Below are positions 747 through 21,904 of a stretch of 64,000 bases of DNA, one piece after another. Below the pieces are notes generated by a model that was not told the origin of the DNA, did not search any database, and was given only the letters and a program-made list of their open reading frames with translations. Source of the stretch: Pseudorhizobium banfieldiae (GTDB lineage: Bacteria > Pseudomonadota > Alphaproteobacteria > Rhizobiales > Rhizobiaceae); assembly GCF_000967425.1 (NCBI RefSeq), contig NZ_FO082820.1:3768501-3832500 (forward strand), read 5' to 3'. The position numbers and the translations under genes are program-made. How positions within the stretch are numbered: position 1 is the first letter of the stretch; each line of letters begins with the position of its first letter.

Positions 747-1361
747 TCAAACCTTTGGCCGGAGTCCGCTGATTTCGAGGATCACTGAGTCGTTCTCGAC
801 GGCGCTGGTATGTATTACCAGATCAAAGTCCCAGTCGCTACGCGCTTTCTCTACCTCGCGCTGGTAATCCCGGCCTTTGTGGAGAAGGGCACGGCAGGAT
901 TTTCCGACCATCCAGGGGGAGGAGTAGCGAAACAGCAGGTTGAGCTCGGCCAATGCTCGTGCGGAAATCATGTCGCAATGGGCAATCTTCGTTTGAGCCT
1001 CTTCGATCCGGCCGGGGTATACAGAGCCCCTCGCCCCGCACTCCATCAGCGCCACCCGTAGGAACGCTGCCTTCTTCTGATTGCTTTCAACCAGATGCAC
1101 GAAGCCATCATTTGCCTCAGCAAGCAATATGGCCGTCACGATGCCAGGGAAACCACCGCCGGAGCCGAGATCGATCCATTCAGCTGGCTGCGGGTGGATC
1201 TGAAACACCTGAGCACTGTCCTCGATGTGACGGCTCCAGACTTCCTCCAGGGTCGATGGTGCAACGAGGTTGATGCGCTTCGCCCATTTTTGGAAAAGCT
1301 CTGCGAAATGCTCTAGCCGCTGATGCGTTTCACGTGAAACAGGCCTGCCGTTCAACAACAT
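747..1361 (-). CDS. rsmG: 16S rRNA (guanine527-N7)-methyltransferase RsmG (GidB)
   Basis: RsmG methylates G527 of 16S rRNA using S-adenosylmethionine; loss is known to give low-level streptomycin resistance. The 204-residue protein has the family length and the SAM-binding loop [11 protein letters not shown]. The ATG at 1361 overlaps the mnmG stop codon by one base (TAATG), so the two are translationally coupled. Codons 8-12 (V-S-R-E-T) are written by a ParB-site palindrome at 1327-1340, so the gene carries a parS-like element in its coding sequence. It lies in the order mnmE-mnmG-rsmG-parA. Confidence 0.95.
1326..1341. promoter_or_regulatory. parS-like ParB-binding site 1 (inside rsmG)
   Basis: The sequence CGTTTCACGTGAAACA matches the bacterial parS consensus TGTTTCACGTGAAACA at 15 of 16 positions and has a perfect 14-bp palindromic core. 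It lies about 0.6 kb from parA. It is the only parS-like site in the window without a GANTC motif. That it is bound is inferred from sequence only. Confidence 0.85.
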
Positions 1362-3235
1362 TACGATACGCGTTCCTTATGCTCTCTCTCCTGCCTACGA
1401 AGATTGGCGAGGAGCAGGGCGGATGCGGCTGGAGTCATTCCCTCAATTCGAGAAGCATGGGCCAGATTCGCTGGTCTCAGGCTCGAAAGCTTCGTCTTTA
1501 ACTCATTGGAGAGACCAGACAGTACTTGGTAGTCAAAGTCCGGTGGTATGGACACCCCCTCGTCACGCCGAAGAGCCAGAACGTCGCTCTCCTGCCTCTC
1601 GAGATAAACTGCATAACCGGCTTCGATCTTGAGAGCAGCTGCGGTGCGTTCCGACATCGCGCGGAGTTCCGGCCAAATCGCGCGGATCTTCTCCGGATCG
1701 ATATCAGGATACGCAAGAAGGTCTATGGCCGTGCGGCGTTGTCCATCCCGGTTAAGACTAATGCCGAATCGTTCCGCCTCGTTTGGCGTTACCGAAACAC
1801 TCGTCAGCTGACCCCGCCAATCCTCAAGGTCGTTCTCGTACCTCTCAAACCGTTCCCTTCTTACTGTCGAAACCAGCCCGAGCTCAACGCCTACCGGCGT
1901 GAGCCGCTCATCAGCATTATCTGCTCGGAGCGACAGCCGGTATTCGGCGCGCGAGGTGAACATCCTATAGGGCTCGGTAACCCCTCGGCTGGTCAGATCG
2001 TCGATCATGACGCCGATATAGGAGCTGGAACGGCTGAAGGTATACGTATCTTGATCACCTGCAAGACGAGCGGCATTGAGGCCCGCTACAAGCCCCTGCG
2101 CGGCGGCTTCCTCATATCCTGTGGTTCCGTTGATCTGCCCGGCAAGGAAAAGGCCGGGCATCTTGCGGAGTTGCAGAGATGAAGAGAGTTCTCGAGGGTC
2201 GACGTGGTCGTATTCAATGGCGTAGCCCGGCTGCAGGATCCGAGCGTGTTCGAGCCCCGGTATGCTATGGATGAACGCTTCCTGTACGTCAGCGGGCAGG
2301 GAGGTGGAAATGCCGTTAGGGTAAACGGTATCATCATCGAGACCCTCTGGCTCCAGGAAAATCTGATGACCGTCTCGTTCGCCGAAGCGGACGATTTTGT
2401 CTTCAATTGAGGGGCAGTAACGTGGGCCAACGCCTTCGATCTGGCCAGAGTACATAGCGGATCGGTGAATGTTCTCTTCGATAATCCGATGAGTGACGCT
2501 GGTCGTCCGGGTGATACCGCAGGCAATCTGTGGCGTCGTTATGGCCTCCGTGAGGAACGAGAACGGGACCGGATCTTTATCTGCTTCCTGGCGCCCGATA
2601 CCATCCCAGTCGATTGTGGTTCCATCAAGCCGGGCCGGCGTGCCGGTCTTAAGTCGCCCAAGGCGTAAGCCGAGTTGTTCGAGGGTTGCGGATAGCCCCA
2701 CTGACGGTCCTTCGCCCATTCGCCCCGCCGGAAAGCGTTCAGATCCGATATGGATAAGGCCGCGCAGGAAGGTGCCGGTTGTCAGAACGGCCGCCACACA
2801 TGCGTACCGTCGACCATCCGAGAGGATCACGCCCGCAACTTTCCCTTCCGTGACGTCCAGATCGAAAACATCGCCTTCGACCACATCAAGATTGACATGA
2901 TTGAAAATCTCGCGCTGCATTCCTTCACGATATAGCCTCCGATCAGCCTGGGTACGCGGCCCACGAACAGCCGGGCCCTTGCGCCGATTCAGCATGCGAA
3001 ACTGGATACCGGCTGCGTCTGCGACGCGACCCATCAGGCCATCCAGCGCATCCACTTCCCGAACCAGATGGCCTTTGCCGAGGCCGCCAATAGCGGGATT
3101 GCAGGACATCACGCCGATAGTGTCTCGGCGATGGGTCACAAGCGCCGTCCGCGCTCCCGTCCGTGCTGCGGCGCTGGCCGCCTCGCAACCGGCGTGGCCT
3201 CCGCCAATTACAATCACGTCATATCGCTTGTTCAT
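1361..3235 (-). CDS. mnmG: tRNA uridine-5-carboxymethylaminomethyl modification enzyme MnmG (GidA)
   Basis: MnmG is the FAD and NADH-dependent partner of MnmE in making (c)mnm5U at the wobble position of certain tRNAs. The 624-residue length is typical. The dinucleotide-binding GGGHAG is at residues 11-16, and the family signature CNPAIGG starts at Cys45. The gene follows mnmE after a 35-bp gap containing a parS-like site, and its stop overlaps the rsmG start by one base. The start ATG at 3235 gives the expected [13 protein letters not shown] beginning. Confidence 0.97.
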
Positions 3236-3252
3236 GGTCCACCTGCGGTGAG

Positions 3253-3268
3253 TGTTTCACGTGAATCA
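3253..3268. promoter_or_regulatory. parS-like ParB-binding site 2 (mnmE-mnmG gap)
   Basis: The sequence TGTTTCACGTGAATCA matches parS at 15 of 16 positions. It fills most of the 35-bp gap between mnmE and mnmG, 17 bp ahead of the mnmG ATG. The single change creates a GAATC, which is a GANTC CcrM methylation motif, in one arm. Confidence 0.82.
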
Positions 3269-3270
3269 CG

Positions 3271-4572
3271 TTACTTGCCGATACAAAACTGTGAAAATAT
3301 GACGTTGAGTAGCTGCTCCACGTCCACCTGGCCCGTAATTCGTCCCAAAGCGGTCGCTGCTCCCCGCAGATGCTCTGCCCGCAGCTCCAGCTCGGTTTCG
3401 TCTAGCGCTGATCGGAGATGAAGGGAAGTATCTTGCAGCAACGCCACCTGACGGCCGCGCATCGGTGCAACCGAGCCGTCCCAAGCGGACTGAATCCGGC
3501 TAACGATAGCCTTGCGAAGTGAGCCTACTCCTTCACCCGTCACGGTCGACAGGTATATATCATAGCTAGGCGCCCGCCGGTGAATGTCGAGCTTTGTCCC
3601 GACACGGAGCGCATGCGGTGATAGAGGAGCCTGCAAAGGCTCCGAACCAATTTCCTCCAGGTACAGAACGAGATCTGCCGTGTCGATCAACTGCCGGGCT
3701 CGGCGGATCCCCTCTTGCTCGATTACGTCTGAGGATTCGCGGATACCCGCCGTATCAAACACGCGCACCAGATATCCCTCGAGATCAAGATCAACGTGCA
3801 ACACATCGCGGGTAGTTCCCGCCAAATCGGTGACGATCGCCACGTCTCGCTGCGCCAGGTAGTTCAGCAGGCTCGATTTTCCCGAATTCGGCGGCCCGAC
3901 GATCGCGACCTTGAAACCATCACGAATGATCTCCCCCCCTTTTGCCGATTCCAGATGCTTCTCCAATTCGGTGCGAACTGCGGCGATGTCCGCCGTGACG
4001 CGTTCTCCAACGGAACCGGGCACATCGTCTTCGTCGGCGAAATCGAGTTCTGCTTCGATCATGGCTCGTGCATGGGTCAGCCTGCGGGCCCAGTCCTCAT
4101 ACAAATGAGACTGCCGACCGAAGCTCTGTTCCACTGCTAGGCGACGTTGCATCTCAGTCTCTGTCGCGATCAGCTCCGCCAGGCCTTCCGCCTCCACCAG
4201 GTCTAAACGGCCGTTCTCGAAGGCCCTGCGCGAAAACTCACCCGCTTCCGCCAACCTGAAGCCGGGTAACGCCGCAAGTTGCGAGTAGACAGCGTTTACC
4301 ACCGCTCTGCTTCCATGCAGTTGGAGTTCGACGACGTCCTCGCCGGTGAAGGAATGCGGTGCTGGAAAGGTCAAGACGAGCGCTTCGTCGATCAGTTGCT
4401 CTTCCCGATCCAGTATCCTCCGGAGTGCCGCCTTGCGTGGGGGAGGTTGCCTCCCTCCTGTCAGTCGCATCAATGCAGGGAATGCCGCCGGGCCACTGAT
4501 ACGCAGGACAGCGACACCCGCCGGCAAGCTACCGCTGGAAAGCGCGAAGATCGTATCTGTCGTGCCACTCAT
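3271..4572 (-). CDS. mnmE: tRNA modification GTPase MnmE (TrmE)
   Basis: MnmE is the G protein that works with MnmG on the wobble uridine of tRNAs. It has 433 residues, close to the family norm. The N-terminal tetrahydrofolate-binding domain begins at TIFALSSG; the G domain P-loop GPPNSGKSS lies near residue 220, and the DLAGTTRD switch follows. The protein ends in CIGK, the diagnostic C-terminal Cys-x-Gly-Lys of MnmE. It is separated from upstream rho by a strong hairpin terminator, so it probably has its own promoter or depends on read-through. Confidence 0.97.
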   Translation of the reverse strand: MSGTTDTIFALSSGSLPAGVAVLRISGPAAFPALMRLTGGRQPPPRKAALRRILDREEQLIDEALVLTFPAPHSFTGEDVVELQLHGSRAVVNAVYSQLAALPGFRLAEAGEFSRRAFENGRLDLVEAEGLAELIATETEMQRRLAVEQSFGRQSHLYEDWARRLTHARAMIEAELDFADEDDVPGSVGERVTADIAAVRTELEKHLESAKGGEIIRDGFKVAIVGPPNSGKSSLLNYLAQRDVAIVTDLAGTTRDVLHVDLDLEGYLVRVFDTAGIRESSDVIEQEGIRRARQLIDTADLVLYLEEIGSEPLQAPLSPHALRVGTKLDIHRRAPSYDIYLSTVTGEGVGSLRKAIVSRIQSAWDGSVAPMRGRQVALLQDTSLHLRSALDETELELRAEHLRGAATALGRITGQVDVEQLLNVIFSQFCIGK

Positions 4573-4595
4573 CCTTGCTGCCTCGACCGGAAAGC

Positions 4596-4626
4596 CAAAA
4601 GCGCCCGGCCGGGCCGAGCGCTTTTG
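4596..4626 (-). terminator. Rho-independent terminator after rho
   Basis: CAAAAGCGC at 4596-4604 pairs with GCGCTTTTG at 4618-4626 around a further CGGC/GCCG stem. Read on the minus strand it ends in TTTTGGCTTT. It lies 21 bp past the rho stop and 24 bp before mnmE. Confidence 0.75.
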
Positions 4627-4647
4627 TAGCGTGAATCCGGCTAATGA

Positions 4648-5913
4648 TTAAGTGTTCATCGAGTCGAAGAAATCGCCGTTGTTCTTCGTCTGCTTCAGCT
4701 TGTCGATAAGGAACTCGATCGCATCGGTCGTGCCCATAGGCGCAAGGATACGGCGAAGCACGAAGATCTTCTGCAGATCCTGGCGCGGCACGAGGAGATC
4801 TTCCTTGCGTGTACCGGACTTGAGAATGTCCATGGCAGGGAAGATGCGCTTGTCGGCAACCTTGCGGTCCAGGACGATTTCGGAGTTGCCGGTTCCCTTG
4901 AACTCTTCGAAGATGACTTCATCCATGCGGCTGCCGGTGTCGATCAGCGCCGTCGCGATGATCGTCAGCGATCCACCTTCCTCAATGTTGCGAGCGGCAC
5001 CAAAGAAACGCTTCGGGCGCTGCAGCGCGTTGGCGTCGACACCACCGGTCAACACCTTGCCGGATGACGGTACCACGGTGTTGTAGGCGCGGCCGAGACG
5101 GGTGATCGAATCCAGCAGGATGACGACGTCGCGACCGTGTTCCACAAGGCGCTTTGCCTTCTCGATTACCATTTCGGCAACCTGAACGTGGCGCACAGCC
5201 GGCTCATCGAAGGTGGAGGAGACAACCTCGCCCCGGACCGATCTCTGCATGTCCGTCACTTCTTCCGGACGCTCGTCGATGAGGAGGACGATCAGATAGC
5301 ATTCCGGATGGTTGGCGGTGATGGAATGCGCGATGTTCTGCAACAGCACCGTCTTACCTGTTCGCGGCGGGGCAACGATCAAGCCGCGCTGACCCTTGCC
5401 GAGCGGTGCCACGAGATCGATCACACGCGCTGACAGATCCTTTGACGTCGGGACATCGAGTTCCATCTTGAACCGCTCATTGGGATAGAGCGGTGTCAGG
5501 TTGTCGAAGTGGACCTTGTGACGGATCTTCTCCGGATCATCGAAATTGATCGTGTTGACCTTCAGAAGCGCGAAATACCGCTCGCCTTCCTTCGGGCCCC
5601 GGATCGGCCCTTCGACAGTATCGCCCGTCTTCAGCGAAAACCGGCGGATCTGGGAGGGTGAAATGTAGATGTCATCCGGGCCAGGAAGATAGTTAGCGTT
5701 CGCGGAGCGAAGGAAGCCAAAGCCATCCTGCAGGACTTCCACCACGCCTTCGCCGATGATTTCAACATCCTGGCTGGCCAGAACCTTCAGGATCGCGAAC
5801 ATAAGCTCCTGCTTGCGCATCGTGCTGGCGTTCTCGACCTCGAGCGATTCGGCAAAGGTCAGCAGGTCGGTTGGCGACTTGCTCTTGAGTTCTTGAAGCT
5901 TCATTTCAGCCAT
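4648..5913 (-). CDS. rho: Transcription termination factor Rho
   Basis: Rho is the hexameric RNA-dependent ATPase that ends transcription at Rho-dependent sites. The 421-residue protein has the N-terminal helix-extended domain ([13 protein letters not shown]), the cold-shock-like RNA-binding fold with the GFGFLRS motif, and the ATPase domain with APPRTGKT as P-loop and VILLDSITR as Walker B. It starts at the ATG of [11 protein letters not shown] 175-bp gap to hemJ carries no recognisable gene and probably holds the promoter and leader. Confidence 0.98.
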
Positions 5914-6088
5914 GAAGGGACCACGTTAGAGGCGATGAGGGAAAAGGGCGTGCCGGTGAAAATCTCGCCGCGGAGGTTTCCGGGGAGGAGTGGGATTACA
6001 AGCATGCCACGAGATGAGATGGCAGGAAAATAGCGAGTCATGCCGGCCCTCGCAAGGGGAAACGTACAGGTAGCGGCAGAAACCGCAA

Positions 6089-6634
6089 TCAGAAGGGCTT
6101 GACCACGACCAGGATGACGATCGCGATCATCAACAGGGTAGGCGCCTCGTTCATCATTCGCCAGTAACGAGCAGTCCGACGTGGCCCGTCGGCGGCGAAG
6201 GCACGCACTGCGCGGCTGAACATGACGTGCACCACCGTCAGGAGAACCACCAGCGCGATCTTGGCGTGCAGCCAACCTCCCTGGAAGGCAAAGCTCTCCC
6301 AGGCGAGGTAGAGGCCCAGCAGCCAGGTGATCATCATCGCCGGGTTCATGATCACCTTCAGCAGGCGACGCTCCATCACCTTGAAGGTTTCCGACTGGAC
6401 GGAACCCACTTCGGCGTCCGTATGGTAGATGAACAGCCGCGGAAGGTAGAACAGGCCTGCCATCCACGAGATCACCGCAATGATGTGCAGGGCCTTCATC
6501 CAAAGCCCGAAACTGTCCGGCTGAAGAACATAAAGGACTGCGATCAGCGCGACGAAGACGCCGATCGCGACAAAGGCTTTCCGTGACGCTCTCCGTCCGG
6601 CAGCTTCACTCGTTTGCCGATCCACATCCATCAT
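6089..6634 (-). CDS. hemJ: Protoporphyrinogen IX oxidase HemJ
   Basis: HemJ is the membrane heme enzyme that oxidises protoporphyrinogen IX to protoporphyrin IX in bacteria lacking HemG and HemY. The 181-residue protein has four hydrophobic segments (starting near [43 protein letters not shown] and [14 protein letters not shown]). The conserved His in HIIAVISW and Trp/Met in [11 protein letters not shown] match the family. Its start overlaps the hemE stop by 4 bp, so the two heme genes are coupled. Some annotations use the older name UPF0093. Confidence 0.9.
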
Positions 6635-7665
6635 GGCATGTATCCGCGGACCCGACGGACCAGATCGCTCACATGCGCGGGATCCGCCTCCGGCGTAATG
6701 CCGTGGCCGAGATTGAAAATCAGCGGTCCATTTCCGAGTGCCTGCAGGATAGCATCGATACCCTCCTCAAGGGCCTGCCCCCCCGCGACAACCCGCATAG
6801 GATCTAGATTTCCCTGTATGGGACCATCCTTCTGCAACTCCACGGCAAAGGAGAGGGGAACGCTCCAGTCAAGACCAATGGCATTCGCATCGGTATCCTG
6901 ACGATAAGACCTCAAGTTCATGCCCGCGCCTTTGGCGAAGGCAATGATCCTAGCCCCAGGACGCGCTGCTCTCACGGTCCGGATCATGCGCGCCACCGGC
7001 CGAACTGCATAGGCTTTAAACTCACGCTCACCGAGAACTCCCGCCCACGAGTCGAAGATCTGCACCGCATCCGCACCGGCATCGATCTGCGCGATCAGGT
7101 ACTCCGCCGAAACATCGGCAAGAAAATCCAGAAGCCGCAGAAACAGGTCCGGATTGCGGTAGGCGAATAGCCGCGCCGGCGCCTGGTCCGGCGTCCCATG
7201 ACCCGCGATCATGTAGGTCGCCACCGTCCATGGCGCACCACAAAAACCCAGAAGCGTCGTCTCCTCCGGAAGCTCGCGGCGAAGGCGGCGGACGGTTTCA
7301 AGCACAGGGGCAAGATGCGAGAGCACACCCTCCGCATCCAGCTTCTCAATGCCTGCGACATCGATTGGGTCCATCTGCGGCCCCTCGCCCTGCACGAAGC
7401 GGACATTACGTTTCAAGACATCCGGAATGACAAGGATGTCGGAAAACAGGATTGCCGCGTCGAAACCGTATCTGCGGATCGGCTGCAAGGTTACCTCGAC
7501 CGCATAGTCCGGAGAATAACAGAGATCCAGGAAGCTTCCCGCCTTCGCTCTCGTTTCCCGGTACTCGGGGAGGTAACGGCCTGCCTGCCTCATAAGCCAG
7601 ATGGGAGGAGGCGTGACCGTTTTGCCTTCCAGCACGTCGACAATCTTCCGGGATGGGCCGGGCAC
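6631..7665 (-). CDS. hemE: Uroporphyrinogen decarboxylase
   Basis: HemE removes four carboxyl groups from uroporphyrinogen III to give coproporphyrinogen III in heme synthesis. At 344 residues it has the family length. [11 protein letters not shown] at residues 26-36 is the substrate-binding signature and [10 protein letters not shown] carries the catalytic Asp. The GFCGAPWT motif is also present. It is the first gene to the left of the origin region, the classical alphaproteobacterial landmark. A 14-bp perfect palindrome lies 18 bp ahead of its ATG. Confidence 0.98.
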
Positions 7666-7683
7666 GTGTTTCTCCTAAAATAG

Positions 7684-7697
7684 ATAAAGATCTTTAT
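7684..7697. promoter_or_regulatory. 14-bp perfect palindrome ahead of hemE
   Basis: ATAAAGATCTTTAT is a perfect palindrome in the AT-rich edge of the origin region, 18 bp upstream of the hemE ATG. It could be an operator for hemE or part of the origin unwinding region. The factor is unknown. The same half-sites ATAAAGA/TCTTTAT recur in the inverted repeat between ptsH and ahcY. Confidence 0.4.
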
Positions 7698-7817
7698 AGG
7701 GTTTCTATTTCTTAGAGTCGGTGGGTATCAAGGATTAAACGTCATCCACCATTGCCGCGACGATCCGCCGCCGACCATGAACGACGGGAAGAGACTCGTC
7801 CACATTAGACGCCCGGG

Positions 7818-7826
7818 CGTGGATAA
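7818..7826 (-). other. DnaA box, one mismatch
   Basis: On the minus strand this reads TTATCCACG, 8 of 9 to the DnaA box TTATCCACA. Confidence 0.65.
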
Positions 7827-7880
7827 ACGGATTCGTGATATGAAATCAGGATGATGCCAATCTCACAGAACAACCTTGCC

Positions 7881-7889
7881 TGTGGAAAA
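7881..7889 (-). other. DnaA box, one mismatch
   Basis: On the minus strand this reads TTTTCCACA, 8 of 9 to the consensus. Confidence 0.6.
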
Positions 7890-7918
7890 CCTGTTGACTT
7901 TCTTCATCGAACCAACGC

Positions 7919-7927
7919 TTGTCCATA
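7919..7927 (+). other. Weak DnaA box
   Basis: TTGTCCATA matches the consensus at 7 of 9 positions. Confidence 0.4.
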
Positions 7928-7970
7928 TTGCCCACATACAGCCGCGGACGTTCTTCGTACGCCATCGAGG

Positions 7971-7979
7971 TGTGGATAA
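7971..7979 (-). other. Perfect DnaA box
   Basis: On the minus strand this reads TTATCCACA, an exact match to the high-affinity DnaA box, in the hemE-ppsR gap. Confidence 0.8.
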
Positions 7980-8038
7980 AGCGGAGGTTACCCCGCGCCT
8001 CGGGCTCCGCCTGGCTGAACCCCACCCGCTCTCCCGGT

Positions 8039-8047
8039 TTATCAACA
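8039..8047 (+). other. DnaA box, one mismatch
   Basis: TTATCAACA matches the consensus at 8 of 9 positions, just ahead of the ppsR start. Confidence 0.6.
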
Positions 8048-8063
8048 GAGGGACCAGAACAGC

Positions 8064-8885
8064 GTGGAGAACCGCAAAAACTACTTCCATCTGCACCTGA
8101 TTTCTGACTCGACGGGGGAGACTCTGATGTCGGCGGGCAGGGCGGTCTCCGCGCAATTTCAGGCCTATGCGGCCATCGAGCACATCTACCCGCTTATCAG
8201 AAGCCGGCGACAGCTCGCCTCCGTATTGGAATCGATCGACCGCGAACCCGGCATCGTTCTCTATACGATCGTGGACGAGGAACTCGCCCGCCTGCTCGAC
8301 CTCCGCTGCCGCGATCTCGGCACCCCGTGTGTCAATCTGCTCGAACCGGTGATGACGACATTCCAGACCTATCTCGGTTCCCCCTCCCGTCGGCGGGTCG
8401 GGGCTCAACATGCACTCGACGCCGATTATTTCGCCCGGATGGAAGCGTTGAACTTCACCATGGATCACGATGATGGCCAGTTGCCGGAGGATTATGATCA
8501 GGCAGACGTGGTGCTGATCGGCATAAGCCGGACCTCCAAGACGCCCACAAGTATCTATCTCGCTAATCGCGGCATCAAGACAGCGAACCTGCCTGTCGTC
8601 CTCGGCATGGAGCTTCCGGACAGCTTGCTTAAGGCAACGCGACCACTGATCGTCGGCCTCATCGCGACGTCCGACCGCATTGCTCAGGTGCGTGAGAACC
8701 GCGAGCTCGGTGTGACGCAGGGCTTTGATCGTAGGGACTACACGGATCGGGCCAATATCCAGGAGGAGCTGAAATATGCCCGTAGCCTTTGCGCCCGCCA
8801 CGGATGGCCGTTGATCGACGTCACCCGGCGATCGATAGAAGAGACAGCGGCGGCTATCGTTGCGTTGCGACCCCGCCTCAGGTAA
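8064..8885 (+). CDS. ppsR: Bifunctional kinase/pyrophosphorylase regulating PEP synthase or pyruvate phosphate dikinase
   Basis: This DUF299 family protein switches pyruvate phosphate dikinase or PEP synthase off by ADP-dependent phosphorylation and on again by phosphorolysis. It has 273 residues with the N-terminal ISDSTGET motif and the P-loop-like [11 protein letters not shown] segment. The start is a GTG at 8064, with a GAGGGA ribosome-binding site about 10 bases upstream. It is the first gene to the right of the origin, homologous to the gene that flanks the origin in other alphaproteobacteria. Which of the two enzymes it controls cannot be told here; rhizobia usually have the dikinase. 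Confidence 0.9.
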
Positions 8886-8916
8886 GCGAAACGAACGATA
8901 CCCGGACCCCTCTTCC

Positions 8917-9513
8917 ATGACGTCTCTCATTCTCGCCTCGGCCAGCCCCTTTCGCCGCATGCTGCTGCAAAATGCCGGGCTTGCATTCGATGCTCACGCG
9001 GCAACCATTGATGAGCGAGCCATTCAAGAGCGTCTGCAGGAGATACATCCTACCCCGGAACATGTCGCTGTGGAGCTTGCAAAGGCGAAGGCGCTCGATG
9101 TTAGCCGCCATTTCCCGGGGATGCTGGTCCTGGGCAGCGACCAGACCATGTCGCTGGGAGAGCGCGTTTTCCATAAACCCGCCGACCTTGACGAAGCCCG
9201 CAGCCACATCGCCACCCTTGCGGGAAAGACCCATAGGCTGAACAGCGGTATTGCGTTGGTTCAGGACGGAGTGGTGCTCTGGGAGCACGTCTCTAGCGCA
9301 GACATGACGGTCCGCCCCCTGAGCGAAGCATTCATCGAACGTTACGTCGAGCGGTGCGGCGAGAAGCTCCTGTCGAGTGTCGGGGCATACCAACTCGAGG
9401 GGGAGGGTATTCATCTCTTCTCCGCAATCGAGGGTGACTACTTCACCATCCTGGGGCTTCCGATGCTGCCCCTCCTCGCCAAGCTGCGAGAACTCGGAGC
9501 CATCAATGGCTGA
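8917..9513 (+). CDS. maf: Maf-family nucleotide pyrophosphatase
   Basis: Maf proteins hydrolyse non-canonical or modified nucleoside triphosphates to monophosphates. The 198-residue product starts at an ATG (8917) giving [17 protein letters not shown], with the family motif SASPFRR; a longer reading frame upstream overlaps ppsR and is not needed. LVLGSDQTM is the conserved Asp region. It follows ppsR by 31 bp, and its stop overlaps the aroE start by 8 bp. The subfamily (dTTP/UTP or m7GTP type) cannot be decided safely. Confidence 0.92.
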
Positions 9514-10363
9514 TTCACGTGAAACAGGAATCATGGCTTTCGTCGCCGGCTGGCCCGTCAAGCATTCCCGCTCGCCGCTTATCCATCGGCACTGGCTGAA
9601 GACCTTCGGCATTGAGGGCGACTATCGGCTGGAGCCTGTGAAACCAGCAGACTTTCCGGCTTTCGTTGCGGATCTGAAATCTGGCGCTTCGATCTATGCT
9701 GGCGGAAACGTCACGATCCCTCACAAGGAGGCAGCCAGCGCGCTGGCGGATCGCTGCGATACCGTCGCCGAGGAACTGGGAGCCGCGAATACGCTCTGGA
9801 GGGAGGACGGGCGGCTCTGTGCCACCAATACCGATGTCCACGGTTTTGCTGCGAATCTCGACGAGCGCCATCCAGGATGGGACAAGGTCTCAAGGGCGGT
9901 CGTTCTTGGTGCAGGCGGCGCCAGCCGAGCTGTCATTCGAGCATTTCGTGATCGCGGCATCTCCGAAATCAACGTCGTCAACCGCACGCTCTCGCGGGCT
10001 GCCGAACTCGCGGATCGGTTTGGACCGACCATCCATGCCCATTCTATGGCGGCGCTTCCGGAAGTTATTCAAGGCGCGGGTCTCTTCGTCAACACGACGT
10101 CCCTCGGCATGGACGGGCAAGACGTCCCCGAGATCGACTTTTCGACCATGTCAATTGGGGCGCTCGTCACCGACATCGTCTACGTTCCGCTACAGACACC
10201 GATCCTGAAGCAGGCTGAAGCCCAGGGCCTAGCAACGGTGGACGGACTGGGAATGCTGCTTCATCAGGCTGTGCCTGGCTTTGAACGGTGGTTCGGGATC
10301 AGGCCTCAGGTCGACGAGACCTTGCGTTCACTGGTTATCGCCGACATGGAAAGGCAGCCATGA
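9506..10363 (+). CDS. aroE: Shikimate dehydrogenase (NADP+)
   Basis: AroE reduces 3-dehydroshikimate to shikimate in aromatic amino-acid synthesis. Translation from the ATG at 9506 gives 285 residues. SRSP at residues 21-24 binds shikimate, [10 protein letters not shown] carries the catalytic Lys, and [12 protein letters not shown] is the NADP-binding loop. Codons 3-7 (D-S-R-E-T) overlap a parS-like site; an alternative ATG at 9533 would exclude it. The gene overlaps maf by 8 bp and coaE by 4 bp, so it belongs to the ppsR-maf-aroE-coaE-dnaQ run. Confidence 0.95.
9511..9526. promoter_or_regulatory. parS-like ParB-binding site 3 (maf-aroE junction)
   Basis: TGATTCACGTGAAACA matches parS at 15 of 16 positions. 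It covers the maf stop codon and codons 2-7 of aroE. The one change creates GATTC, a GANTC methylation motif. Confidence 0.82.
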
Positions 10364-11689: not shown

Positions 11690-11710
11690 ATTACGGCTTT
11701 TGCAACGCTA

Positions 11711-12190: not shown

Positions 12191-12278
12191 GGGTTTCCCT
12201 CGGATATTTGAACGGTTGCTGGCGTCTAGCACTTAGACCGGTGGCTTACAACCCTGGCCCCGGGAGCCGTGCCAGAGG

Positions 12279-12788: not shown

Positions 12789-12898
12789 CTACGCTCGATC
12801 TGCGCGGCGTCCGCTCGCGCCTTCGCTATTTGAATGATCCGGCCTTGCGGACTATATGAGAACTTGCAACAAGAATTTAAACGGCATTGCGGGACAAG

Positions 12899-13594
12899 AT
12901 GGGCTCCAACGACTTCATAACTCTGTTTTTCCTCGTCGCTGCAGTCCTCATATTTCTGCAATTGCGGAGTGTGTTGGGCCGGCGGACGGGGAACGAGAAG
13001 CCGCCCTTTGATCCTTTCAGTGCGCGTGAGGCCGGCAAGGCACCCGCGAGCGATGACGGCAAGGTCGTGACACTGCCGCGCCGGGAGGTCTCCGACGAGG
13101 ACCGTTTCGCAGAGATCGATGCGGTCGCCAAACCCGGTACCTCGGCCAATGACGGTCTGCGTCAACTGTTGAAAGCTGACCCATCCTTCCAGCCACGCGA
13201 GTTTCTCAACGGCGCCCGTATGGCCTACGAAATGATCGTCATGGCCTTCGCTGACGGGGATCGAAAGAGCCTCAAGAACCTCCTCTCCAAGGAGGTTTAC
13301 GAAGGCTTCGACGCCGCCATCTCCGACCGTGAGTCGCGCGGCGAAGTGGTCAAGTCGACCTTTGTCGGCATCGACAAGGCCGACATCACCCAGGCGAGCG
13401 TGCGGGGGAATGAGGAGCAGGTGACGGTTCGCATCGTCAGCCAGTTGATCTCCGCAACCTATGACAAGAGCGGTGCAGTCATTGATGGTGACCAGGAAGC
13501 TGTCGCGGAAGTCATAGACATCTGGACCTTTGCTCGCGACGTCCGCTCCCGGGATCCGAACTGGAAGCTCGTCGCGACCGAATCCGAGCAATGA
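12899..13594 (+). CDS. Tim44/TimA-like domain protein, membrane-anchored
   Basis: The product (231 residues from the ATG at 12899) has one N-terminal membrane segment (about residues 6-24) and a C-terminal Tim44-like domain containing the FLNGARMAYEMIVMAFADGD region. In mitochondria Tim44 works in protein import; bacterial members are reported as inner-membrane proteins that affect envelope integrity. It overlaps mltA by 4 bp (ATGA). A TTG four codons upstream is a possible but less likely start. The exact role here is unknown. Confidence 0.85.
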   Translation: MGSNDFITLFFLVAAVLIFLQLRSVLGRRTGNEKPPFDPFSAREAGKAPASDDGKVVTLPRREVSDEDRFAEIDAVAKPGTSANDGLRQLLKADPSFQPREFLNGARMAYEMIVMAFADGDRKSLKNLLSKEVYEGFDAAISDRESRGEVVKSTFVGIDKADITQASVRGNEEQVTVRIVSQLISATYDKSGAVIDGDQEAVAEVIDIWTFARDVRSRDPNWKLVATESEQ

Positions 13595-14712
13595 ACGAGG
13601 GCTCGTCGGGTTTTTCGCTTCGGCGGGTCGCTTTCTCTGATCTACCCCGGTGGAGCGAGGATCATCCCGGTCTGCTGCTGGAGGGGATCCGCAACTGCCT
13701 GACCCACATCCGCTCGGGCAAGTCCTACCGAACAGGAGACCTGGGGCTGTCATGCGACGACATCCTGCCTGCCTATGAAGCGGCTCTCCGTGCCGATCTT
13801 CTTGACGCCGGGTCCGCTCGGCAATTCTTCGAGCAGCATTTCGAACCGTTCAGGATCTGCCGCGACGACGGCTCGCAGGGTTTCGTCACCGCCTTCTACG
13901 AGCCTGAGGTTGAGGTTTCGGACACCCCGTCAGGCGAGTGGGCGTTTCCGTTTTACCGTCGCCCAGCGGATTTGATCGATCTCGATGCCGCCAACCGGCC
14001 GGCGGGCATGGACGCTTCGTACCGGTTCGGTCGGTCCGCTCCCGCAGGGATTGCGGAGTATCCCGACAGGCGTGCAATCGACCAAGGCTGCCTGAGCGGA
14101 CAGGGATTGGAAATCGCGTGGGGCCGCTCCAAGGTCGATGTCTTCTTCGCCCATGTTCAGGGTGCTGCACGCTTGAAGTTCCGGGATGGCAGCATCAAGC
14201 GGATAACCTATGCGGCGAAGGCAGGCCATCCCTTCAGTGCCATCGGCAAGCTGCTGATCGAGCGTGGTGAAATCGATGCGGCAACGGTCTCTATGCAGAC
14301 CATCCGCGCGTGGCTGGAAGCAAATCCGGATCTGACGGACGAGGTCCTCTGGCACAACCGCTCCTACATCTTCTTCAGGGAGGCGGATGTTTCGGATGAC
14401 CGGCTCGGTCCGATCGCAGCTGCGAAGGTGCCCCTCCTTCCTGGTCGCTCGCTTGCCGTCGACCGGCTCATTCACACCTTCGGATACCCATTCTTCATCC
14501 ACGCGCCGTCACTGACCCATCTCGACGGTGGCCAGGCCTTCGCCCGGACCATGCTGGCGCTCGATACCGGCAGCGCCATTGTCGGACCGGCGCGAGGTGA
14601 CATCTTCACAGGTTCCGGCGCCGCTGCAGGAGAACTGGCTGGAACCGTGCGAAACGAGGCGGACTTCTATATTCTCGTCCCGCGCTCCGCATCGGCGAGG
14701 ATGGCTGGATGA
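13591..14712 (+). CDS. mltA: Membrane-bound lytic murein transglycosylase A (MltA family)
   Basis: MltA cleaves peptidoglycan glycan strands with formation of 1,6-anhydro-MurNAc. The 373-residue protein has the MltA barrel domain, with GFVTAFYEPEVEVS as a recognisable motif, and a C-terminal 3D domain with the DIFTGSG segment that supplies catalytic aspartates. No clear lipoprotein signal is visible at the N-terminus, so its localisation is uncertain. It overlaps both neighbours by 4 bp, within a Tim44-like, mltA, smr, xre series. Confidence 0.93.
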   Translation: MNEGSSGFSLRRVAFSDLPRWSEDHPGLLLEGIRNCLTHIRSGKSYRTGDLGLSCDDILPAYEAALRADLLDAGSARQFFEQHFEPFRICRDDGSQGFVTAFYEPEVEVSDTPSGEWAFPFYRRPADLIDLDAANRPAGMDASYRFGRSAPAGIAEYPDRRAIDQGCLSGQGLEIAWGRSKVDVFFAHVQGAARLKFRDGSIKRITYAAKAGHPFSAIGKLLIERGEIDAATVSMQTIRAWLEANPDLTDEVLWHNRSYIFFREADVSDDRLGPIAAAKVPLLPGRSLAVDRLIHTFGYPFFIHAPSLTHLDGGQAFARTMLALDTGSAIVGPARGDIFTGSGAAAGELAGTVRNEADFYILVPRSASARMAG

Positions 14713-15281
14713 GTAGCGGTCGAAGGCTCAGTCCGGAAGAGCGGATACTTTGGGGGAAGGTGGCGAAGTCAACGCGCGCCTTGCCCGGTGGACAGGCGGA
14801 TGCTCGTGAGTTCGCGGAGGAAATCGCCGCCATGCTGGCGGCGGAGGAGGCAGCGCTGGCGCAGCCGCTGCCGACGAAATCTCCCGCGGATGCCCCGGCA
14901 ATCGACCATCGGCCGGCGGACGCTCGACGGCCGCCGCCGAGCCATCAACCACTGGAAAAGCCTGTCCATCGGAAGCTGGCGAAAGGGCGGTTGCCTATCG
15001 AAGCCCGGATCGATCTCCATGGGCTGTTTCAGGACGAGGCGCATGATCTCCTCCTCGATTTCCTCTATCGCGCCCATGATCGCGGCATGCGTCATGTGCT
15101 GGTGATCACCGGCAAGGGCAGTTCCCTCGGCAGCGAAGGGGCGCTACGACGTGCGGTGCCCCTCTGGTTTTCCAAGCCCGAGTTTCGCTTCCTCATCTCC
15201 TCCTACGAGTGGGCGGCCCGTCACCATGGTGGAGAGGGCGCGCTCTACGTCCGGCTCAGCCGCCCGAGACGCCATCCATGA
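14709..15281 (+). CDS. Smr-domain protein
   Basis: The 190-residue product has a variable, proline-rich N-terminal half and a C-terminal Smr (MutS2-related) domain starting near RIDLHGLFQDEAHDLL. The conserved DLHG and the ITGKGSS motifs are present. Smr domains bind or nick nucleic acids; some bacterial members act on mRNA in collided ribosomes. The role in this organism is not known. It overlaps mltA and the following regulator by 4 bp each. Confidence 0.88.
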   Translation: MSSGRRLSPEERILWGKVAKSTRALPGGQADAREFAEEIAAMLAAEEAALAQPLPTKSPADAPAIDHRPADARRPPPSHQPLEKPVHRKLAKGRLPIEARIDLHGLFQDEAHDLLLDFLYRAHDRGMRHVLVITGKGSSLGSEGALRRAVPLWFSKPEFRFLISSYEWAARHHGGEGALYVRLSRPRRHP

Positions 15282-15643
15282 CACCCTTCGCACAGGCCCT
15301 TCGCGAACTGCGCCGGCGCAGGGGCGTGACCCAAAGGGACCTTGCCGCTGCGATCGGGGTCTCGCCTGCCTATCTCTCGGCGCTCGAGCATGGCCGGAAG
15401 GGCAAGCCTAGTTTCGATCTTCTGCAGCGGATTGCCGGCTACTTCAACATCATCTGGGACGAAGCCGACGAACTCTTCATGACGGCAGAAGCCTCGCATC
15501 CGAAGGCTGTGCTGGATACCGCAGGCCTTCCGCCGCGCTACACCGCTTTTGCCAATCGCCTGGCACGCGAGATTCGCGCACTGCCGTCGGATGTGATAGA
15601 GGCCATGGACAAACTGCTGGACCAGTCTCCGCCCAAGGGTTGA
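15278..15643 (+). CDS. Xre-family helix-turn-helix transcriptional regulator
   Basis: This 121-residue protein starts at an ATG overlapping the smr stop. Residues 5-65 form an Xre/Cro helix-turn-helix, with TQRDLAAAIGVSPAYLSALE as the DNA-recognition part. The C-terminal half (LPPRYTAFANRLAREIRALP) is conserved in rhizobial homologues but lacks a known ligand domain. It is the last gene of the Tim44-mltA-smr series and lies 141 bp ahead of gyrB. Its target is unknown. Confidence 0.88.
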   Translation: MTPFAQALRELRRRRGVTQRDLAAAIGVSPAYLSALEHGRKGKPSFDLLQRIAGYFNIIWDEADELFMTAEASHPKAVLDTAGLPPRYTAFANRLAREIRALPSDVIEAMDKLLDQSPPKG

Positions 15644-15763
15644 TTGTTGCGGAATCCCCTGATTTCAGGCTTTTCCGGCATGGCATGAGCTTTAGAATCC
15701 GTCCCAAACTTCCTATATCTGGGGGTGGATGCGCGGGTGATTCGCAGCGTCCTGCCCGCTTAA

Positions 15764-18220
<2,457 letters not shown>

Positions 18221-18228
18221 GAAGATGC

Positions 18229-18244
18229 TGTTTCACGTGAATCG
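18229..18244. promoter_or_regulatory. parS-like ParB-binding site 4 (gyrB downstream)
   Basis: TGTTTCACGTGAATCG matches parS at 14 of 16 positions and includes GAATC, a GANTC motif. It forms a perfect 14-bp inverted pair with the next site. Confidence 0.75.
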
Positions 18245-18254
18245 CCGCTTGCGC

Positions 18255-18270
18255 TGATTCACGTGAAACT
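18255..18270. promoter_or_regulatory. parS-like ParB-binding site 5 (nitroreductase 3' end)
   Basis: TGATTCACGTGAAACT matches parS at 14 of 16 positions and includes GATTC. It is centred 26 bp from site 4 and overlaps the nitroreductase stop codon. The long inverted repeat could also act as a terminator hairpin between the two convergent genes. Confidence 0.75.
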
Positions 18271-18868
18271 AGTCTTCCCCGACGAAGCGTCCTTCGAACG
18301 CCACTTCCGAGAGCGGCTTGCGCTCGCTCTGGACCTCCCGCTCACGCAGGTCGTCTGGAAGCGTCTCCTTCGCAGCGAGCCGCCCGATCGCGCAGGCAGC
18401 CTCCACCCGATAGCCATCGGGTATGCCCAGAACCCGCACTGCCTTCTCGCGGTCCATGCCTTCCATCCCATGGGCGTGGTAGCCGAGCTTCATTGATTGG
18501 CACGCGATCGAGAACCACGCGGAACCGGTATCGAACGCATGGGTGTATGCCGGCTTTCGCTCGCCATCCTTGGAAATCCGGTAGGTGCGCGAGACGAAGA
18601 TGACCAATGCCGAAGCGTTCTGCGCCCAGCGCTGGTTTCCCGGTGACAGGATATCCAGGAGTACAGGCCAGCTGGCTGTCTCCCGCAAGGCATAGATGAA
18701 GCGCCAGGGTTGATTGTTGCCGGAAGAGGGCGCCCAGTGACCTGCATCCAGAATGGTCAGCAGGTCCTCCCGGCTCATCGCTTCGCCGGTGAAGGCGCGT
18801 GGTGACCAGCGGTCGAGAAAGAAGGCATCCACCGGATGTTCCGACTGTCGGTTGTTGCTTTGGGTCAT
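18269..18868 (-). CDS. Nitroreductase family oxidoreductase
   Basis: The 199-residue protein belongs to the FMN-dependent nitroreductase family, with the N-terminal RRS-like segment DRWSPRAFTGE and the GHWAPSSGNNQPWRF motif that contacts FMN. The substrate is not known. The ATG at 18868 is chosen because the longer frame upstream has no family similarity. It is convergent with gyrB and divergent from the FAH gene. Confidence 0.9.
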   Translation of the reverse strand: MTQSNNRQSEHPVDAFFLDRWSPRAFTGEAMSREDLLTILDAGHWAPSSGNNQPWRFIYALRETASWPVLLDILSPGNQRWAQNASALVIFVSRTYRISKDGERKPAYTHAFDTGSAWFSIACQSMKLGYHAHGMEGMDREKAVRVLGIPDGYRVEAACAIGRLAAKETLPDDLREREVQSERKPLSEVAFEGRFVGED

Positions 18869-19009
18869 GGGCGCCGGCTCCGCTGCAAATGACGGTCTCA
18901 GAAACATAGGGTGAGCGGCGGACAACACAACGCAGACTGCGTGCAAGGGGGATGACAATGAGCCTGCCATCCTCCATAAGGCAGTTGTCAGACAAGTGGA
19001 GGCATATCC

Positions 19010-19852
19010 GTGAAACTCATGCGTGTTGGTCAGCCGGGCCAGGAAAAGCCGGCAATCCTCGATGCGAGCGGCAAGGTCAGGGACCTGTCGCAGCATGTCG
19101 CCGACATCGGTGGCGCGGCCATCTCGCCGGAGGGTCTTGCCAGGATCGCTGCTCTCGACCTGCAGAACCTGCCCGAGCTGCAGGTTGACCGCATTGGCGC
19201 CTGCGTTGCCGGCACCGGCAAGTTCATCTGCATCGGCCTGAATTTCTCTGACCATGCTGCCGAGACGGGCGCCGCCGTCCCGCCGGAGCCCGTCATCTTC
19301 ATGAAGGCCACCTCAGCCATCTGCGGCCCCAATGATGATGTCATCATTCCCCGCGGCTCGGAGAAGACGGATTGGGAGGTCGAGCTCGGCGTCGTCATCG
19401 GCAAGACCGCCAAATATGTCAGCGAAGCCGAGGCCATGGAGTATGTGGCCGGCTACTGCGTCTCGCACGATGTATCGGAGCGCGGCTTCCAGACGGAGCG
19501 CGCTGGTCAGTGGACCAAGGGCAAGTCCTGCGACACCTTTGGTCCGATCGGCCCATGGCTGGTCACGAGGGACGAGATCGCTGACCCGCAGAACCTCGGC
19601 ATGTGGCTGAAGGTGAACGGCGAGACTATGCAGAACGGCTCGTCGAAGACCATGGTCTATGGCGTGGCCTTCGTCGTCTCCTATCTCAGCCAGTTCATGT
19701 CGCTGCATCCCGGTGACGTCATCTCCACCGGCACGCCGCCGGGCGTCGGCATGGGCATGAAGCCGCCGCGTTACCTGAAGGCAGGCGACGTCGTCGAACT
19801 TGGGATTGAGGGGCTGGGTACGCAGCGCCAGATCTTCGTGGCGGATCGTTAA
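19010..19852 (+). CDS. Fumarylacetoacetate hydrolase (FAH) family protein
   Basis: The 280-residue product has the FAH C-terminal fold. CIGLNFSDHAAE and EPVIFMKATSA hold the active-site entrance. EVELGVVIGK carries the metal-binding acidic residues, and VISTGTPPGVGMG is the family signature. Relatives include 2,4-diketo-3-deoxy-L-fuconate and ureidoglycolate-type hydrolases; the substrate here cannot be fixed. The start is a GTG with a GGAGG ribosome-binding site eight bases upstream. A clear terminator follows. Confidence 0.88.
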   Translation: MKLMRVGQPGQEKPAILDASGKVRDLSQHVADIGGAAISPEGLARIAALDLQNLPELQVDRIGACVAGTGKFICIGLNFSDHAAETGAAVPPEPVIFMKATSAICGPNDDVIIPRGSEKTDWEVELGVVIGKTAKYVSEAEAMEYVAGYCVSHDVSERGFQTERAGQWTKGKSCDTFGPIGPWLVTRDEIADPQNLGMWLKVNGETMQNGSSKTMVYGVAFVVSYLSQFMSLHPGDVISTGTPPGVGMGMKPPRYLKAGDVVELGIEGLGTQRQIFVADR

Positions 19853-19896
19853 CCAGCCGAACGGACGGAACCTTAAGGCGCTTCATGCCATTCTTG

Positions 19897-19925
19897 ATGC
19901 CAGGCCTCCGCGCCTGGCATTTTTA
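19897..19925 (+). terminator. Rho-independent terminator after the FAH gene
   Basis: ATGCCAGGC pairs with GCCTGGCAT over a 6-nt loop and is followed by TTTTTATT. Confidence 0.85.
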
Positions 19926-20051
19926 TTGGTTAATGATTGGTCCCGCCTGATGTTGCACTGCAATCCAAACATGGTAGCCTCTCCCATTGCTCCCGAAGCA
20001 GCCGGTCGGCTCCGACCGCCGGTGCCGGTAGCCACGAAAGGCGGCGCATCG

Positions 20052-21335
20052 ATGATCTACCAGTTTTACGAGATGAACCACGCGGCGGTCGCACCTTTCC
20101 GTGCCGCCGCCGACGCCATGAGGCTGTTCCACACCAACCCGCTCAATCCGCTCTCCTACACGGCCATGGGGCGGAGCATGGCGGCCGGCCTCGAGCTTTT
20201 CGAGCGGGTGACGCGCCGCTACGGCAAGCCTGAGTTTGGTCTGCCGACCACTGTCATTGATGGGACTACTGTTCGCGTCACCGAGGACATTGTCTGGTCT
20301 AAGCCGTTCTGCAATCTGATCCATTTCCGCCGGGACCTTCCGGCCGGTCGTGCACCTGACCAGAAGATCCTTCTCGTGGCTCCGATGTCGGGCCACTACG
20401 CGACGCTGCTGCGCGGCACGGTTGAGACGCTGCTCCCCAATGCCGAGATCTACATCACGGACTGGATCGATGCGCGTGTGGTGCCGGTGACGGACGGTCG
20501 CTTCGACCTTGATGACTACATCGATTACCTGATCGAGATGGTCCATCACATCGGCCCGAACACCCACGTGATCGGTGTGTGCCAGCCATCTGTCCCCGTC
20601 TTGGCTGCGGTTGCTCTGATGGAGTCGGCCAAGGATCCGCTGGCGCCAGCCTCCATGATTCTCATGGGCGGACCGATCGATACGCGCAAGAACCCGACGG
20701 CGGTGAACCAACTGGCCCAGGAGAAGCCGCTCGAATGGTTCCGCGACAATGTCATCATGAACGTCCCGTGGCCGCATGCGGGGTTCATGCGCCCGGTCTA
20801 TCCGGGCTTCCTCCAGCTTTCGGGCTTCATGTACATGAACCTCGACCGCCATATTACGGCGCACAAGGAATTCTACGAGCATCTGATCAAGAACGATGGT
20901 GACTCGGCAGAGAGACACCGCGATTTCTACGACGAGTACCTGGCGGTCATGGACCTCACCGAGGAATTCTATCTGCAGACGGTAGACACGGTTTTCATCA
21001 AGCACGCCCTGCCTGAAGGCAAGATGATGCATCGCGACCGCCTCGTCGACACGACGGCGATCCGCAATGTCGCGCTGTTGACGGTGGAAGGGGAAAACGA
21101 CGACATCTCCGGCCTCGGCCAGACCCAGGCCGCCCATACGATCTCGCCGAACATCCCGGACCATATGCGGATGCACTACATGCAGCCCGACGTCGGCCAC
21201 TACGGCGTCTTCAACGGCTCGCGCTTCCGCCGCGAGATTGCTCCGCGTATTCTGGAGTTCACTGCACGCCACGCCCGTGGTGGTGAGCGCCCCAACCCGG
21301 TGAAGCGCGTCATCAAGGGTGGCAAGGCAGGATGA
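20052..21335 (+). CDS. phaZ: Intracellular polyhydroxybutyrate depolymerase
   Basis: PhaZ mobilises stored polyhydroxybutyrate granules. The 427-residue product begins MIYQFYEMNHAAVAPFRAA, the usual start of rhizobial PhaZ, at the ATG at 20052. An open frame continues 84 codons upstream but overlaps the previous gene and terminator. The alpha/beta-hydrolase nucleophile lies in the box GVCQPSV, where Cys replaces the usual Ser; this is typical of this depolymerase group. The catalytic His is in GHYGVFNG. The gene stands alone between terminators. Confidence 0.93.
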   Translation: MIYQFYEMNHAAVAPFRAAADAMRLFHTNPLNPLSYTAMGRSMAAGLELFERVTRRYGKPEFGLPTTVIDGTTVRVTEDIVWSKPFCNLIHFRRDLPAGRAPDQKILLVAPMSGHYATLLRGTVETLLPNAEIYITDWIDARVVPVTDGRFDLDDYIDYLIEMVHHIGPNTHVIGVCQPSVPVLAAVALMESAKDPLAPASMILMGGPIDTRKNPTAVNQLAQEKPLEWFRDNVIMNVPWPHAGFMRPVYPGFLQLSGFMYMNLDRHITAHKEFYEHLIKNDGDSAERHRDFYDEYLAVMDLTEEFYLQTVDTVFIKHALPEGKMMHRDRLVDTTAIRNVALLTVEGENDDISGLGQTQAAHTISPNIPDHMRMHYMQPDVGHYGVFNGSRFRREIAPRILEFTARHARGGERPNPVKRVIKGGKAG

Positions 21336-21465
21336 ATTCCGGCCGCTAATTCAGGTGGTTCTTGAAAACCGGCGGGGTTCTTCTTGAAGCGGCCAGGCCG
21401 ACTCCCCAAATCGATTCCGACGGGCTGGCATGTGGCTGCCCGCGGAAACGAAGGGTATGACATCG

Positions 21466-21888
21466 ATGAACCAGTCAGCATTGATCCGTCCGGATTGGAC
21501 GCCGGCTACCATCGCGTTGATGGTGCTGGGCTTCGTGGTCTTCTGGCCGCTCGGCCTTGCCATGCTCGCCTATATCCTCTTCGGCGAACGGCTCCAGAGC
21601 TTCAAGCGCGATGCCAACCGCAGGGCAGATGGCATGTTTGCCGGCTGTCGCCGGGCCAAGTCGCGCTACAACACGCATTTCTCCACGGGAAATGTTGCCT
21701 TCGACGATTGGCGCAAGGCCGAACTTGATCGCATCGAGGAAGAGCGCCGCAAGCTCGACGAGATGCGGGAGGAGTTCGACAGCTATATGCGCGAATTGCG
21801 CCGTGCCAAGGATCAGGAGGAGTTCGACCGCTTCATGCGCGAGCGCAAGAACCGCTCCACCGGCCAGGGCGACGTCGTAGATCTCTGA
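21466..21888 (+). CDS. DUF2852 membrane protein with coiled coil
   Basis: This 140-residue protein is not functionally known. It has one hydrophobic segment (about residues 12-33, ATIALMVLGFVVFWPLGLAML) and a cytoplasmic, highly charged helical C-terminal part from about residue 75, predicted by eye to be coiled coil. The ATG at 21466 has GAAGGG ten bases upstream; an in-frame ATG at 21457 is one base from that site and less likely. A parS-like site starts at the base after its stop codon. Confidence 0.75.
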   Translation: MNQSALIRPDWTPATIALMVLGFVVFWPLGLAMLAYILFGERLQSFKRDANRRADGMFAGCRRAKSRYNTHFSTGNVAFDDWRKAELDRIEEERRKLDEMREEFDSYMRELRRAKDQEEFDRFMRERKNRSTGQGDVVDL

Positions 21889-21904
21889 GGATTCACGTGA
21901 AACA
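21889..21904. promoter_or_regulatory. parS-like ParB-binding site 6 (after the DUF2852 gene)
   Basis: GGATTCACGTGAAACA matches parS at 14 of 16 positions and contains GATTC. It lies about 14 kb from the origin, directly after a stop codon and just before a terminator. Confidence 0.75.

Follow-up and report, generated by a model that had tools for sequence, protein, structure and literature searches.

The parS sites of the Bacillus and Caulobacter chromosomes and parS1 of Agrobacterium are 16-bp palindromes built around CACGTG and clustered near parAB, and parS1 of Agrobacterium tumefaciens has been reported to share the consensus of Bacillus subtilis (PMC9239152; this and the other papers are cited from excerpts). 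The DNA analysed here, called the window, is a stretch of 64,000 bp from Pseudorhizobium banfieldiae (NZ_FO082820.1, positions 3,768,501 to 3,832,500), a member of the Rhizobiales, and it contains six sites of the same build and clustering. They depart from the described sites in that most of those outside the gene rsmG hold, in one half of the palindrome, the motif GANTC, the target of the methylase CcrM, the other half being mostly consensus. Across the Rhizobiales, most parS sites outside rsmG have one half with a single CcrM target. From the sequence statistics we infer that this GANTC tag could couple CcrM methylation to ParB and rhizobial chromosome segregation, a reading to which we give a probability of about 0.5.

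The parS sites of the window

Six copies of the core TTCACGTGAA are present in the window, where 0.06 is expected by chance, and the 16-mers around them match the parS consensus TGTTTCACGTGAAACA with one or two mismatches, the expectation being 0.05 at three mismatches or fewer. All six lie within 21 kb, and the positions at which the original prediction had placed its cores are the starts of these 16-mers:

1326..1341, no strand: parS site 1, CGTTTCACGTGAAACA, both arms consensus, inside rsmG, encodes VSRET
3253..3268, no strand: parS site 2, TGTTTCACGTGAATCA, GANTC at 3263-3267, in the mnmG/mnmE intergenic region
9511..9526, no strand: parS site 3, TGATTCACGTGAAACA, GANTC at 9512-9516, over the stop codon of a maf-like gene and codons 3-7 of aroE
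18229..18244, no strand: parS site 4, TGTTTCACGTGAATCG, GANTC at 18239-18243, directly past gyrB
18255..18270, no strand: parS site 5, TGATTCACGTGAAACT, GANTC at 18256-18260, facing site 4, with the GANTC arms inward
21889..21904, no strand: parS site 6, GGATTCACGTGAAACA, GANTC at 21890-21894, abutting the stop codon of the open reading frame 21430-21888

Exactly one GANTC lies inside five of the six sites, where the third base of one arm has each time changed from T to A. Both arms are intact only in the rsmG site, which has no GANTC inside; the closest one starts at 1432. The single motif in five sites and the intact rsmG arms were the central observations of the original prediction, and the motif positions bear them out. 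The motif is about threefold depleted across positions 1-64000 (125 found, 386 expected), and at the rate of the window one GANTC would be expected in a 16-mer about 2% of the time. Six of the seven cores of the genome belong to this cluster, which is adjoined by a parA-like gene and parB, and the seventh, at C1:2802021, lies 0.97 Mb away, has no parS arms and is probably a chance match. Judged by their sequence, the six sites of the window are the chromosomal parS of a ParABS system.

Site 3 is no clean case of the arm change, because the exchange of T for A also creates the TGA that ends the maf-like gene and falls in codon 3 of aroE, whose start is read at 9506 (9506-9526, ATG GCT GAT TCA CGT GAA ACA). 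A single 16-mer has three roles there, as parS, as maf-like stop and as part of the first aroE codons. The pair formed by sites 4 and 5 (18229-18270, 26 bp apart, GANTC arms inward) is also found in L002, L003, L006, L016, G014, G002 and G005, L standing for fetched loci and G for genomes. No NCBIfam model matched the open reading frame 21430-21888, and an Rfam search of positions 1-24000 gave no match.

One GANTC per tagged site across the Rhizobiales

The order sample consists of 249 genomes, at least 90% complete, drawn evenly from the Rhizobiales, and the locus set of 90 fetched loci of the order, 60 of which were hand-picked from match listings and are biased to genomes with tagged sites (those with an internal GANTC); L051 and L091 share one genome, as do L057 and L092. 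Among the named loci, those of Neorhizobium and Pseudorhizobium come nearest to the window. Related genomes inherit their sites together, so that counts are inflated, and most tests ignore kinship; the results least exposed to shared descent are the test with one genome per family and the repeated gain in rsmG, both given below.

The arm change, which could have been a peculiarity of this strain, is conserved. Sites with one GATTC arm, of the form GATTCACGTGAAAC, number 330 in the order sample and occur in 119 of the 249 genomes and 52 of the 108 genera, beside 412 sites with two consensus arms in 223 genomes; C or G takes the same base in 30 sites of 29 genomes. In the 90 loci, one internal GANTC is present in 265 of 392 sites. 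The proportion is 18/82 in rsmG, 100/148 between mnmG and mnmE and 147/162 everywhere else; the rsmG site is therefore mostly plain, and the sites outside rsmG and mnmG-mnmE are mostly tagged. The arrangement of the window recurs in 17 named Rhizobium-like loci (L002-L012, L014-L018 and L029), with a plain site in rsmG, tagged sites at mnmG-mnmE and aroE, and one or more tagged sites past gyrB.

The combination of the two arms bears on what is being conserved. No site with two GATTC arms was seen in the order sample, where the random dealing of arms within 113 genomes predicts 45 +/- 4.6; when each of 21 families is represented by a single genome, 5.5 are expected (P=0.0003). Likewise, a double GANTC occurs in none of the 401 TCACGTGA-centred sites of the 90 loci. 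Two altered arms are nevertheless not forbidden as such, since GATTC is combined with GCTTC 18 times among the 31 sites with both arms altered (A+C 18, A+G 3, G+G 4, C+C 3, C+G 3, A+A 0). The A+C sites of G022, G504, G465, G443 and G471 sit among the other parS sites of those genomes, and the remaining ones may be due to chance. Among the matches listed for the class sample there is one two-GATTC site (G041, C1:3373075), about 350 kb from the parS pair of that genome; it is probably a chance occurrence, and others may exist outside the order.

The changes at the free base of the motif have the same tendency. Where the N position is changed next to a consensus arm, in 40 sites, the arm reads GAGTC 26 times, GAGAC four times and otherwise ten times; GAGTC is two changes from the consensus and GAGAC one, so that the two-step form is the commoner. 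In the 389 sites of the 90 loci that have one perfect half, the other half reads GATTC in 224, GTTTC in 117, GACTC in 31 and anything else in 17. This signal points to GANTC itself, at one per site, as the favoured feature, rather than to loose ParB binding. Some sites of the Hoeflea-like loci L020 and L023-L027 read GAGTC.

The rsmG sites, which encode VSRET, follow this pattern within a coding sequence. Of the 82 counted in the 90 loci (only those centred on TCACGTGA and with one recognised half entered the count), 63 have both arms consensus and one, in L058, has GAGAC, while the 18 that make GANTC do so 13 times as VSRES (T to S) and five times as DSRET (V to D, a second site in one family). 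A codon-based scan of rsmG adds a GCTTC form and two cases of TTTCCCGTG; in seven loci with an rsmG match it did not find the motif. On a tree of MnmG proteins (76 tips, midpoint root) the VSRES form needs three changes by parsimony, which we read as two gains and one loss within the order. By eye, the VSRES form is also seen in the rsmG of L122, outside the order. In the loci L050-L053 and L090 (family f6) the rsmG match contains two parS sites. One is plain, encodes VSRET and has a GANTC 1 bp beyond its end; the other encodes DSRET and holds a GANTC, and its second arm is GAGAC in L052.

Sites that keep both consensus arms have a GANTC close by more often than chance would give. Within 30 bp of the consensus-arm sites of the 90 loci, GANTC reaches 4.0 times background, whereas seven motifs with the same base content stay at 0.51-1.79. 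It accompanies 54 of these 117 sites compared with 11% of control positions (52 of 117 in a stricter count, with other parS sites masked and the motif wholly inside the 30 bp). By place, the excess is 3.58 times in rsmG and 4.40 times elsewhere. Around sites with an internal GANTC the flanking motif is at 1.23 times background (controls 0.66-1.73). In other orders of the class a flanking GANTC was found at 13 of 58 sites (control 11%) where genomes had been chosen for their consensus sites, and at 8 of 12 (control 10%) in a few chosen for the GATTC arm. The statistic carries no tree correction, and such sites occur in 12 of the groups into which the loci were sorted. In family f167 the consensus mnmG-mnmE parS of L042:15571 and L039:14783 have five and four GANTC within 30 bp, respectively.

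The orientation of the tagged half was considered as a possible rule and rejected: on the mnm side it faces the presumed origin in 88 sites and away from it in 73, and on the gyrB side the figures are 70 and 12, with common ancestry having a strong influence there.

Alternative explanations

Several observations weigh against a coupling of methylation to ParB. Outside the order the GATTC form is rare, in 7 of the 285 genomes of the class sample and in four of 334 matching sites in 169 class genomes. CcrM was detected in all 51 genomes of the order that were tested (in one, G412, as a fragment only) and in 24 of 29 from elsewhere in the class, and 33 of the 51, G412 among them, have no one-arm GATTC; CcrM therefore does not require the tag, and its presence was ruled out as a predictor of the tagged arm. 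One arm of L126:5196, the single matching site of G097, reads GAATC, and no CcrM was found in that genome. The N of the motif is not free, since beside a consensus first arm GAATC occurs 330 times, GAGTC 26 times, GATTC once and GACTC never. Near plain sites some control motifs are raised as well in subsets, the highest being AGNCT (2.48) in rsmG and TCNGA (2.33) elsewhere. In up to 66 of the 265 tagged sites an open frame of at least 100 codons could stop at the TGA of the GATTC arm. Finally, in A. tumefaciens the depletion or overexpression of CcrM affected ori2 and produced no significant change in ori1 foci, according to the excerpts of PMC11514494, although foci counts may miss a mild effect on ori1. 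The proposal of the original prediction, that ParB binding or replication timing could depend on methylation of these motifs, is thus upheld in part: the arm change is conserved and the statistics favour GANTC itself, and the indifference of the A. tumefaciens ori1 foci to the level of CcrM speaks against it. As to G097, a genome of 1.7 Mb that is 97% complete, its parS-like site lies by eye upstream of the apparent mnmG start.

The explanation that competes best with methylation, though we hold it to be unlikely, is that ParB alone sets the pattern, tolerating or preferring A at position 3 of one half, with GANTC a by-product devoid of function. A variant half beside a conserved one is known, since the parS of Caulobacter conserve mainly one half (PMC5815017, excerpt), and the arm pattern is not tied to the presence of CcrM. 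A simple additive tolerance does not account for the pattern, however, because A far exceeds C or G in single changes (330 vs 30), yet A+C exceeds A+A in double ones (18 vs 0), and a ParB preference predicts neither the prevalence of GAGTC over GAGAC nor the excess of GANTC beside unchanged sites. Moreover, when the ParB of the window's genome was aligned with 62 others from the loci, L028 being left out for want of the region, the nine ParBs of untagged groups could not be told from the rest by any column of the helix-turn-helix. A shift in ParB specificity was thus looked for and not seen; the groups were made by family, so that the untagged locus L058 sat in a tagged group.

A second explanation, which appears more improbable still, leaves ParB out as the reader: GANTC would be read by another factor such as GcrA, or ParB would shield it from CcrM, much as MucR shields other GANTCs, and the site would be marked by hypomethylation. 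In Caulobacter and Sinorhizobium MucR indeed blocks the access of CcrM to GANTCs, the methylation of the GANTCs at the Caulobacter parS locus was not significantly altered by extra methylases or by a lon mutation (both from excerpts of PMC5172544), and flanking GANTCs need not touch ParB. The place of the motif, inside the ParB site at a constant offset in 265 of 392 sites, would be odd if ParB were uninvolved, and such a reader or shield does not predict the lack of two motifs per site.

Least probable of all is an origin by descent or coding reuse, in which new sites were copied from a GATTC-type ancestor or the TGA of TGATTC was kept as a stop: the joint inheritance of sites in related genomes and the maf-like stop in site 9511 agree with it, and coding reuse may explain some tagged sites because up to 66 of the 265 could be stops, but the other 199 are not stops by the 100-codon test, the bases directly outside the 14-mer vary between sites, GANTC seems to have arisen twice at the rsmG site within the order, and the flanking excess is left unexplained.

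Genomic setting, proposed model and known systems

The features around the sites, the presumed origin among them, are listed below.

1..725, minus strand: parA-like gene, truncated by the window start, named from sub-cut-off ParA family matches and its place beside parB and rsmG
L031:7050-7925, outside the window, strand not given: parB, following the parA-like gene
747..1361, minus strand: rsmG, 16S rRNA methyltransferase (NCBIfam TIGR00138), host of parS site 1
6631..7665, minus strand: hemE (TIGR01464), beside the presumed oriC
7666..8063, no strand: gap between hemE and a ppsR-like gene, presumed oriC by position only
15770..18220, plus strand: gyrB (TIGR01059)

The parS sites of the window lie on both sides of hemE and of the adjoining gap, and this gap we take to be oriC by analogy with other Alphaproteobacteria. 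The ParB of this genome matches the Caulobacter ParB structures 6t1f and 7bm8 (E 3e-69), with the helix-turn-helix aligned. A CcrM-type methylase is also encoded, with a RAMA domain above cut-off and a match to the CcrM model NF050803 (E 1e-190, 632.8 bits) that falls below the 830-bit cut-off of that model.

The model we favour combines these elements. CcrM would methylate the GANTC motifs of the parS sites, which, if they lie near oriC as presumed, would become hemimethylated soon after initiation and would keep that state up to the late appearance of CcrM in the cell cycle. The methyl groups of a GATTC arm would be carried by the arm adenine and by the opposite-strand adenine facing core T5, and both would project into the major groove read by the ParB helix. 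Lying in the major groove of a single half, these additional methyl groups would tune the nucleation or the clamp loading of ParB there, while the unmodified other half and the untagged rsmG site would keep a baseline. One tag leaves one half unmodified, which fits a tuning rather than an on-off switch. The favoured sign of the effect is that full methylation would weaken the tagged sites and replication would re-open them, so that new sisters would load more ParB; this sign is a guess, and the opposite is also possible.

In the hemimethylated state the sisters would differ, the methyl group being on the arm adenine in one and on the opposite-strand core adenine in the other. More tentatively, and with less confidence than in the coupling itself, we suggest that the Rhizobiales run a methylation-tuned centromere in which untagged parS give a constant loading of ParB and the others have one CcrM switch each; the sister copies would be chemically distinct while hemimethylated because the switch is in one half only. 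If so, the difference between sisters could time segregation to the passage of the fork or tell old-strand sisters apart. A centromere mark of one per site, widespread in the order, would link ParABS directly to the cycle of CcrM, and would touch two open questions, the timing of segregation relative to replication and the control of ParB loading on newly copied origins. Even with an indifferent ParB, the lack of two-GANTC sites calls for an explanation.

In relation to known systems, a GANTC inside a chromosomal parS is not reported in the excerpts of PMC11514494, PMC9040568, PMC5172544, PMC3973325, PMC9239152 and PMC5815017, a partial coverage of the literature that leaves an earlier report possible. 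GANTCs at a parS locus, the feature studied here, were assayed in the MucR study of Caulobacter, but as a comparison, with no embedded motif or link to ParB in the text available (PMC5172544). The repABC megaplasmid pAMI4 resembles our loci in the uneven spread of GANTC around a centromere-like locus, 3parS, but its GANTC cluster lies about 500 bp from parS3 and not in the site (PMC9040568, excerpt). A further parallel is the control of ori2 and repABC by CcrM and GANTC in A. tumefaciens, where GANTCs also stand near partition and replication elements. The excerpts of PMC11514494 report a lower average methylation signal for the GANTCs near ori1 than for those near ter2L, a difference that the authors read as fitting a methylation limited by the cell cycle. 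The same authors suggest that one GANTC may serve partitioning, being closer to two predicted parS sites. In A. tumefaciens these motifs are in the promoter region beside the repABC parS, whereas in the loci described here they are inside the chromosomal parS itself.

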